Shown one piece after another: positions 27,000-48,794 of a DNA stretch of 64,000 nt. How positions within the stretch are numbered: the first letter of the stretch is position 1; each line of letters opens with the position of its first letter. Position numbers and translations under genes: made by a program. The DNA is taken from contig CAIJFT010000331.1 in NCBI GenBank assembly GCA_903820035.1, positions 1 through 64,000 of the forward strand. The letters are read 5' to 3'. The DNA is from an uncultured Opitutia bacterium (GTDB lineage: Bacteria > Verrucomicrobiota > Verrucomicrobiia > Opitutales > Opitutaceae). The notes beneath the pieces were generated by a model. It was not told the origin of the DNA. It searched no databases and saw only the letters and a program-made list of their open reading frames with translations.

Positions 27000-27030
27000 A
27001 GTTGAAAGGTGAAAGTTGAAGGGTGAAAGT
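27000..27030. repeat. Degenerate heptamer array (AGTTGAA/AGGTGAA)n
   Basis: agttgaa-aggtgaa-agttgaa-gggtgaa-agt, 7-nt period. Confidence 0.7.
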
Positions 27031-27041
27031 GGGCTTGGCCC

Positions 27042-27065
27042 GTAGCCCTGCGCGTGAGCGCAGGG
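27042..27065 (+). repeat. REP-like element: GTAG followed by perfect 8-bp hairpin
   Basis: GTAG-CCCTGCGC-GTGA-GCGCAGGG. Confidence 0.7.
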
Positions 27066-46587: not shown

Positions 46588-46669
46588 CTCACGCGGAGGG
46601 CGCGGAGGAGCGGAGCACATGGAGTAGGCGGCGCCTTCCTCTCCGCGTTCTCCGCGCCTCCGCGTGAAC
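46588..46669. repeat. Inverted repeat built of CGCGGAG units
   Basis: CTCACGCGGAGGGCGCGGAGGAGCGGAG ... CTCTCCGCGTTCTCCGCGCCTCCGCGTGAAC. Confidence 0.7.
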
Positions 46670-46705
46670 CTGTGTCGCGTTCCGAAGGCACCATCGCCAT
46701 CGATC

Positions 46706-47317
46706 ATGCCGATTCTCTTGCAATCTACCCGTCACCTCCGCCGCCGTCGGCCCCCCGCCGTCACGCTCGTCCTTCTGCTCGCGTTCACCGCCTGCCAGCC
46801 CCGCGACCCGCTCGCGCGAACCGTCTCCGCTTCGAGTCCGGTGTCCTTCGCGATGTGGCAGAACCGGTTGACCGGGGACTTTCCCGCGGACGAGCGCCGC
46901 CGTTTCGAGGAGGCGTTTCAGGAGATCCGGCTGAAGATCATGGGCGACCGTGAGGCGCGCGGCAGCGAGGCGATTGATGTAGCCTTTCTCGGCAAGATCA
47001 ACGGCCGGCCCCTGCGCGAGGCGTTGCAACTCGGCTGGGAAGCGAAACTCATCCGCCTGAAGGCCGAGGGCATCGCGCTCGAGGAGGTGCTGGCGAAAAA
47101 CGCGACGCTGCAGACCCGCGAGGGCGACAAGGCCTCGGAGCGTTACCTCGTGGAACTGCACCAGAAACAGTTTGGCCGTCTCGACAAGCTCAAGGCCGAT
47201 ATCGTCGAGACCGAACGGTTGCTGGCGCCGCTGGTAAAGATCACCGGCCGCCGCTTGATTCCGCCGGACGAACCCGCCGTGTTGTTGAAGCCGGCGCCGG
47301 TGAAGCCCAAGACCTGA
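46706..47317 (+). CDS. Hypothetical lipoprotein
   Basis: TVLVLLLAFTACQP-type lipobox near the N-terminus (VTLVLLLAFTACQP). Confidence 0.75.
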   Translation: MPILLQSTRHLRRRRPPAVTLVLLLAFTACQPRDPLARTVSASSPVSFAMWQNRLTGDFPADERRRFEEAFQEIRLKIMGDREARGSEAIDVAFLGKINGRPLREALQLGWEAKLIRLKAEGIALEEVLAKNATLQTREGDKASERYLVELHQKQFGRLDKLKADIVETERLLAPLVKITGRRLIPPDEPAVLLKPAPVKPKT

Positions 47318-47338
47318 TTATTGTCGGGTGGGGCCCAG

Positions 47339-47395
47339 TGTCCCCATCGGGCCGGGACGTAACGGCGGTCGTACGCAAACGACCCGATGGGGACA
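47339..47395. repeat. Perfect 13-bp inverted repeat TGTCCCCATCGGG / CCCGATGGGGACA
   Basis: Arms 47339-47351 and 47383-47395. Confidence 0.85.
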
Positions 47396-47415
47396 GCGGG
47401 TTCCGCCGGTAAAGT

Positions 47416-47490
47416 GTAGCCCGCGGCGTGCGCCGCGGGACGACAAGCGTTTCGAACCGAAGTGGTCCCTGCGCGCACGTGCAGGGCTAC
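47416..47490. repeat. REPIN-like doublet: two GTAGCCC hairpins in inverted orientation
   Basis: GTAG-CCCGCGGCGTGCGCCGCGGG ... 25 nt ... CCCTGCGCGCACGTGCAGGG-CTAC. Confidence 0.75.
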
Positions 47491-47600: not shown

Positions 47601-48794
47601 ATGAGTGTCTCGTCGCCTCCGCTCCCGCCGCCGTCCGCGCGGCTCACTTCCCTCGACGCTTTCCGCGGCGCAATCATGCTCTACATGGCGTCGCACGGTC
47701 TCGGCCTGACTCAGGTCGCGCAAAAACTACCCGAGCAACCGTGGACCTCGCTCGCGTGGTGGTTCGACCACGTCACGTGGAGCGGCGGCTCGACGTGGGA
47801 CCTGATCCAGCCCGCGTTCATGTTCATGGTCGGGGTTGCGCTGCCGTTCTCTTACGCGCGGCGGCGCGACCAGGGGGATTCGTTTCAACGCATCCTCGGT
47901 CACGCCTTCGTCCGCGCGGCGATCCTCGTGTTGCTCGCCGTGTTTCTGGCCTCGCGGAGCGGCAAGGGTACGGTCTGGGAGTTTCCGAATGTCCTCGCGC
48001 AGATCGGATTCGGGTATCCGTTTCTCTTGTTCGTGCTGAACCGCCGGGTCGGCGTGCAGGCGGCGGTCGCCGGCGGCATCCTCGCGGCCTACTGGCTGTT
48101 CTTCGCCCTGCATCCGCTGGCCCCGGCGGGCTTTGACTACGCCAAGGTCGGCGTGAAGGCCGCGGAGGTCACGGGCGGCGCGGTGTTCGACGGCTTCTTC
48201 GGCCACTGGAGCAAGGGCACCAACGCCGCCGCGGCCTTCGACGGCTGGTTGCTCAACCTCTTCCCGCGCGCCACGCCGTTCGTGTTCAACGCCGGCGGGT
48301 ACGCGACGCTCAACTTCGTGCCGTCGTTCGCCACGATGCTGTTCGGCCTCATGGCCGGCGAATGCCTGCGCAGTGAACGGACGGCGTCGGCGAAGCTCCG
48401 CGCGCTGCTGCTCGGCGCACTTGCGCTCGTCCTCCTCGGGCTCGTGGCCGGCTCTACGATCTGCCCGATTGTGAAACGTATTTGGACGCCCTCGTGGGCG
48501 CTCGTCAGTGGCGGACTCGTGGTTGGGATGCTCGCCGGGTTCTACTGGGTGATCGACGTCCTCGGTTACCGGCATTGGGCAAAGTTCCTCGTCGTGGTCG
48601 GCATGAACTCGATTGCGATCTACCTGATGTCGCAACTCATGCGGCCGTTCCTCGCGGAGACGTTGCGCACGCACCTCGGCCCCGACCTGTTCCGCGGCAC
48701 CTTCGGGCCGGTGGTCAGCGCGTGCCTCACGCTCTTTATTTTCTGGCTCATCTGCTGGTGGATGCACCGGCGGAAGATTTTCCTGCGGATTTGA
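47601..48794 (+). CDS. Multi-TM acyltransferase, DUF5009 / heparan-alpha-glucosaminide N-acetyltransferase-like
   Basis: RLTSLDAFRGAIMLYMASHGLGL ... STWDLIQPAFMFMVGVALPFSYARRR. Confidence 0.88.
   Translation: MSVSSPPLPPPSARLTSLDAFRGAIMLYMASHGLGLTQVAQKLPEQPWTSLAWWFDHVTWSGGSTWDLIQPAFMFMVGVALPFSYARRRDQGDSFQRILGHAFVRAAILVLLAVFLASRSGKGTVWEFPNVLAQIGFGYPFLLFVLNRRVGVQAAVAGGILAAYWLFFALHPLAPAGFDYAKVGVKAAEVTGGAVFDGFFGHWSKGTNAAAAFDGWLLNLFPRATPFVFNAGGYATLNFVPSFATMLFGLMAGECLRSERTASAKLRALLLGALALVLLGLVAGSTICPIVKRIWTPSWALVSGGLVVGMLAGFYWVIDVLGYRHWAKFLVVVGMNSIAIYLMSQLMRPFLAETLRTHLGPDLFRGTFGPVVSACLTLFIFWLICWWMHRRKIFLRI

Follow-up and report, generated by a model that had tools for sequence, protein, structure and literature searches.

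Known REP and REPIN systems

GTAG repeats have been placed in the PVC superphylum, and Opitutus terrae was found to be strongly enriched in these repeats, which there comprise several families and include HH dimers and REPtrons (Di Nocera 2013, PMC3733652). The initial annotation of the present locus proposed that a REPIN in a probable Verrucomicrobiota genome would extend the phenomenon to a new phylum; as the enrichment of O. terrae was published in 2013 (PMC3733652), this extension is not new. The assignment of the host itself was borne out, since it belongs to the Opitutaceae and to the same genus as MAG UppL3_bin-435 (RAYT matches). The doublet described here has much in common with the GTAG REP super-family, including GTAG-17, GTAG-19 and GTAG-20 of O. 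terrae: a GTAG/GTGG foot, a stem of 6-9 bp, a short loop, HH and TT dimers, an intergenic location and a link to RAYT genes. Both O. terrae and the host are Opitutaceae, the likeness being drawn from the published description rather than from a comparison of consensus sequences. In addition to what was reported earlier, the sequences tie the doublet family to its probable moving enzyme in close relatives.

The REPINs of Pseudomonas fluorescens (PMC3116915) and the REP/BIME elements of E. coli with TnpAREP likewise consist of inverted doublets with diverse spacers, and their RAYT is flanked by the same REPs. The present family differs from these in its REP sequence, in the X-Y pairing seen throughout its relatives (24/24), and in that its RAYT was not found in the host genome. 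The definition of a REPIN used here is that of PMC8049555, according to which E. coli strains without a RAYT keep fewer REPINs.

The doublet and its setting

The doublet at 47416-47490 lies in the window, that is, the whole stretch of 64,000 nt that was analysed (Table 1). Each of its units is a 24-nt hairpin composed of a GTAG tag, an 8-bp stem and a 4-nt loop, the loops of the family being GTGA or GTGC. The halves fold singly, or jointly as one long hairpin, and the fold of the single-stranded DNA is far more stable than that of dinucleotide shuffles (z = -4.9; 0/200 shuffles as stable). The two inverted GTAGCCC palindromes of the initial annotation can be read directly in the sequence and the stem pairing upholds the self-folding that it ascribed to each half, but the spacer that it gave as 25 nt is 27 nt long. 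The neighbouring genes are co-directional with the doublet in the intergenic space between them. The start of the downstream gene is supported by homologues in congeners, which align from residues 5-8. No T-run terminator was found at the doublet.

Table 1. Positions of the repeats, genes and related features in the window and at other loci.
Feature	Sequence	Position	Strand	Remarks
Upstream ORF, 217 aa	window	46664-47317	+	without Pfam match; doublets sit in its 3' intergenic space
Degenerate HH doublet, GTGG-NNCCCGATG-TCCC-CATCGGG	window	47328-47406		units 47328-47351 (+) and 47383-47406 (-)
REP unit, Y type	window	47416-47439	+	foot GTAG, stem CCCGCGGC/GCCGCGGG, loop GTGC; 8/8 stem pairs
Spacer between the REP units, 27 nt	window	47440-47466	.	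only outermost bases kept across copies
REP unit, X type, inverted	window	47467-47490	-	foot GTAG, stem CCCTGCAC/GCGCAGGG, loop GTGC; 7/8 stem pairs
Downstream membrane-protein ORF	window	47601-48794	+	start 47601
Single REP of the doublet's family, GTAG-CCCTGCGC-GTGA-GCGCAGGG	window	27042-27065	+	exact copy, intergenic, consensus GTGA loop
RAYT frame through 3' REP	L141	252-884		
RAYT frame through 3' REP	L142	1543-2166		
RAYT frame through 3' REP	L127	to 2972		
X-Y inverted doublets in relatives	L141, L142, L127, L355-L370			
Identical 57-nt TT doublet	L367	505-561		
Identical 57-nt TT doublet	L374	489-545		
RF01687 pair around IS200/IS605-type gene	L045	1318-1364, 1905-1951		
RF01687 pair around IS200/IS605-type gene	L391	1501-1545, 2087-2131		
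RF01687 pair around IS200/IS605-type gene	L402	1501-1545, 2092-2136		
RF01687 pair around IS200/IS605-type gene	L049	1116-1160, 1713-1757		
REP-containing array, unit ~241 bp	L018	1-460		host contig C143
REP-containing array, unit ~241 bp	L019	1-330		host contig C130
REP-containing array, unit ~241 bp	L021	1-295		host contig C93

A degenerate doublet of a second REP family stops 9 nt short of the GTAGCCC doublet. Exact cores of this family number 88 in the host genome, 116 in G003 and 21 in G011, and in the congener G003 a RAYT is accompanied by perfect HH doublets of the GTGG-NNCCCGATG family on both sides (L255). The GTGG and GTAG families also lie within 100 nt of one another on contig C152. 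As in P. fluorescens and E. coli, where REPINs inserting beside older ones form clusters (Bertels & Rainey 2011, PMC3116915), clusters are found here too.

The repeat family in the host genome

Genome-wide enumeration, which the initial annotation had put forward as a check, returned 66 exact matches to GTAGCCCNNNGCGTGMGCNNNGGG in the host genome (6.05 Mb, 98% complete) and none to the reversed control pattern. With so many paralogous copies, its refuting case of a unique sequence with no paralogous copies does not apply. BLASTN with the doublet as query found 43 places, and 80 contigs sampled at regular steps (0.66 Mb) show a copy density that agrees with 66 copies per genome.

Adjacent units no more than 70 nt apart comprised 16 HH, 1 TT and 0 HT arrangements with spacers of 18-33 nt in 0.87 Mb of host sequence, where the loci had partly been chosen as doublets. 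Because of this choice, the unselected list of GTAGCCCNNNGCGTGMGCNNNGGG matches is the better guide to any orientation bias; its close pairs were three HH and no other kind, alongside many single units. A strict HH doublet pattern occurred at five host loci and in 0/387 other sampled Verrucomicrobiota genomes. Half of the HH doublets in the host (8/16, that at 47416-47490 included) pair an X with a Y hairpin, and the other 8/16 are X-X. Since the host spacers are near random in sequence except for their end bases, they give no support to copying of the 47416-47490 doublet as a unit.

Distribution in relatives

The GTAG REP family is patchy within the genus, with many copies in 4/27 congeners. 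Among 76 genomes searched, GTAGCCCNNNGCGTGMGCNNNGGG was abundant in the congeners G004 (164 copies), G005 (45) and G016 (59), and its count was 0-2 in most congeners. It was sparse in two other Opitutaceae genera (7 and 3 copies), while one further genome of the order held 16 copies of a different subtype. No copy was found in G029, which we take to be O. terrae PB90-1.

In the RAYT-bearing or REP-rich relatives, all inverted doublets (24/24) pair an X (CCC[TGC]G) with a Y (CCCGC) hairpin, a count given without a p-value because doublets that were copied together are not independent. The doublets of G016 fall into spacer-length classes with a common sequence (11-12-nt HH spacers close to ACNTCCNGCAAT, 9-nt TT spacers close to AACCAAGGC), as expected if the units were copied together. 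Neighbouring hairpins in the same direction in the RAYT-bearing or REP-rich relatives match like with like; the 47416-47490 doublet is a mixed X-Y pair. One tail-to-tail doublet of 57 nt is identical, down to its spacer, in G005 and G047, which belong to different genera, and is a case of recent transfer or contamination.

Homologues of the downstream gene (66-70% identity) in G016, G003, G024 and G023 are preceded by DNA unrelated to that at the doublet locus, so that these genomes offer no counterpart in which an empty site could be recognised. This comparison covered one genome per species, and synteny of the flanks is lacking in congeners.

A RAYT gene flanked by the repeats

Three relatives (G005, G027 and G004) carry a RAYT of ~200 aa with GTAG-CCC..GTGA hairpins on both sides, its 3' end running into a REP. 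As the frame reads through the 3' REP, the repeat encodes the last residues of the protein (PALTRRAT or a variant). Pfam barely detects this RAYT (13-15 bits), and the NCBIfam model NF047646 (REP-associated tyrosine transposase) matches it with E-values of 8e-10 and 3e-13, below the curated cut-off. A 13-sequence RAYT profile had a single match in the PDB, 4er8 (E. coli TnpAREP), with an E-value of 1e-8, and the MPDHxH (HUH) and Y-x3-NP motifs are invariant in 13/13 sequences. The gene of the relatives therefore shows the features that define TnpAREP/RAYT proteins, namely the HUH motif, a single catalytic Tyr with a downstream Asn, REP flanks and similarity to TnpAREP. A profile search of the 76 genomes recovered strong orthologs in the REP-bearing G004, G005 and G027, together with more paralogs in other genomes. 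Thus, the cognate RAYT sought by the initial annotation is present, flanked by REPs, in these three close relatives, but the same profile search did not recover it from the host assembly.

In a set of 80 named RAYT loci, drawn from Verrucomicrobiota and a few other phyla, the density of GT[AG]G hairpins next to the RAYT is 12.6 times that at distances of more than 1.2 kb, and 16 of these loci have such hairpins. Nearly all of the hairpins at those 16 loci have an 8-bp stem and a 4-nt loop, of which GTGA is the commonest. The more two RAYTs diverge, the more their REPs tend to differ, though the correlation is weak (Mantel r 0.33, p 0.012, n = 16). REPIN/RAYT systems are hereby confirmed as an ordinary component of Opitutaceae genomes, and a concrete RAYT-REP pair outside the Proteobacteria, natural variants included, would permit tests of hairpin recognition by a domesticated transposase.

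An ortholog of this RAYT was found neither in the host assembly (98% complete) nor in G016 (85%), both of which carry ~60 REPs. The profile search of the host genome returned distant RAYTs on contigs C141 and C126 alone, and that of G016 likewise distant ones. There are two Pfam Y1_Tnp matches in the host genome, neither of them flanked by an intact copy of the GTAGCCC REP. Three candidates for a cognate RAYT in the host were rejected: that on C126 has no REP nearby, that on C10 is cut by the contig end and has a degenerate GTAGCCC doublet ~1 kb off, past another gene, and that on C141 has a different hairpin pair (GTAG-GCCCGGCC) downstream. A cognate RAYT usually accompanies REPINs in the same genome but is no requirement; its absence is compatible with REPIN membership, since RAYT-less E. 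coli with REPINs have been reported (PMC8049555). A genus with both RAYT-bearing and RAYT-less species offers a comparison of REPIN decay.

Downstream of the host RAYT on C141, hairpins of a third type, GTAG-GCCCGGCCGGTGGCCGGGC, form an inverted pair (L125 1895-2340), which suggests that the host genome has a third REP family and a RAYT belonging to it.

Nature of the doublet

The doublet at 47416-47490 is very probably a REPIN, that is, a non-autonomous element mobilised in trans by a RAYT. This assignment is supported at the sequence level by its structure and by the RAYT linkage in relatives: a palindrome with a GTAG foot occurs in many copies, two such units form an HH pair with a short spacer and one joint hairpin, and the same repeats flank the RAYT of G004, G005 and G027. 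The REPIN architecture and the dispersed multi-copy family suggested by the initial annotation both hold on these grounds.

The element would be a non-autonomous miniature in which two GTAG-tagged hairpins stand in inverted orientation, and its copies would be spread in trans by a HUH/Y1 single-strand transposase of the TnpAREP type (RAYT). This enzyme would recognise the GTAG foot and hairpin, probably in single-stranded DNA during replication; that it acts on these REPs we infer from its homology to E. coli TnpAREP. The element was probably once mobile. The host population is probably old, with diverged spacers, many mixed or degenerate doublets and no matching RAYT in the assembly. Spacer divergence and the lack of an assembled cognate RAYT indicate a population that is probably decaying, as the simplest inference, or else a RAYT that falls in an assembly gap. 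The copy at 47416-47490 would most likely be inert, or a passive stem-loop 3' of the upstream gene.

Alternatively, the hairpins might be kept as regulatory structures in RNA or DNA, such as a 3' mRNA stabiliser, an attenuator or a gyrase/topology site, with mobility just their origin. A role in gyrase binding or topology has been proposed for enterobacterial REP/BIME. The intergenic position 3' of a gene with co-directional neighbours, the very stable stem-loop and the location of REPs mostly downstream of genes (PMC3733652) are what such a role would lead one to expect; however, a T-run terminator is absent, and neither the patchy occurrence among congeners nor the divergent and mixed doublets of the host suggest a conserved function, so that we consider regulation an unlikely explanation.

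It is considerably less probable that, instead of being REPINs mobilised by a RAYT, the units are the ends of an IS200/IS605-type element (a TIR-flanked TnpA) and its MITEs. Acido-Lenti-1 (RF01687) is the sole Rfam family matched in the window, with two matches, 22.6 bits at 47395-47439 and 27.1 bits at 27028-27065, both on GTAGCCC REPs and both under the 37-bit threshold, for which reason RF01687 was rejected as an RNA family for these repeats. Acido-Lenti-1 is nevertheless the best Rfam match, it brackets an IS200-type TnpA in other Verrucomicrobiota, and the architecture of hairpin and foot is common to both: its reverse-complemented consensus, TAG-CC(N6)-4-nt loop-(N6)GG, has the same foot and hairpin as the doublet. 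Unlike the doublet, it has an additional small hairpin, and it forms part of TIRs of ~65-130 nt that bracket the IS200-type TnpA. The doublet family is without these extra hairpins of the TIRs, its scores are sub-threshold, and between the hairpins of three relatives there is a RAYT of the TnpAREP type and no IS200-type gene. Finally, although GC-rich hairpins are favoured in a genome of 65% G+C, chance palindromes are refuted almost beyond doubt by the 66 copies against 0 reversed-pattern controls and by the conserved foot, loop and inverted pairing.

Acido-Lenti-1 as a probable transposon end

When first described, Acido-Lenti-1 was listed as a candidate RNA only (Weinberg 2010, PMC2864571). 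RF01687 scores above threshold in 42/241 Verrucomicrobiota genomes, often in tens of copies, in arrays and as inverted pairs. In G053 the sole Y1 gene encodes an IS200/IS605 transposase that scores above the curated cut-off. Two RF01687 matches of 48.8 bits bracket this gene, and gene-less pairs lie elsewhere. The same bracketing, 44-59 nt from both gene ends, was found in G237 and G138, and with sub-threshold matches in G025. An IS200/IS605-type gene lies within 1.5 kb in 5/30 RF01687 loci, the inverted flanks of 11/13 such genes beat 200 shuffles, and most RF01687 copies lack an adjacent gene, as expected for derivatives. RF01687 was found beside none of the REP-type RAYTs at the best 30 NF047646 loci of RF01687-rich genomes (0/30).

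On this evidence from Verrucomicrobiota genomes, it is probable that the GTAG hairpin belongs, as one branch, to a broader family of Y1-transposase ends in the PVC group and Acidobacteria. Acido-Lenti-1 would then not be an RNA gene but the DNA hairpin that terminates TIR-flanked IS200/IS605-type elements and their derivatives without a gene. If true, this reading would correct a database entry under which the ends of transposons are annotated as RNA genes in many genomes.

Repeats at contig ends

In favour of the alternative that the RAYT falls in an assembly gap, exact REPs no more than ~300 nt from a contig start numbered six copies on five contigs, where ~1.3 would be expected, among the ~54 matches listed. 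A tandem unit of ~241 bp, comprising one REP and a long inverted repeat, was observed at the ends of three host contigs (Table 1); REP arrays therefore probably break the host assembly.
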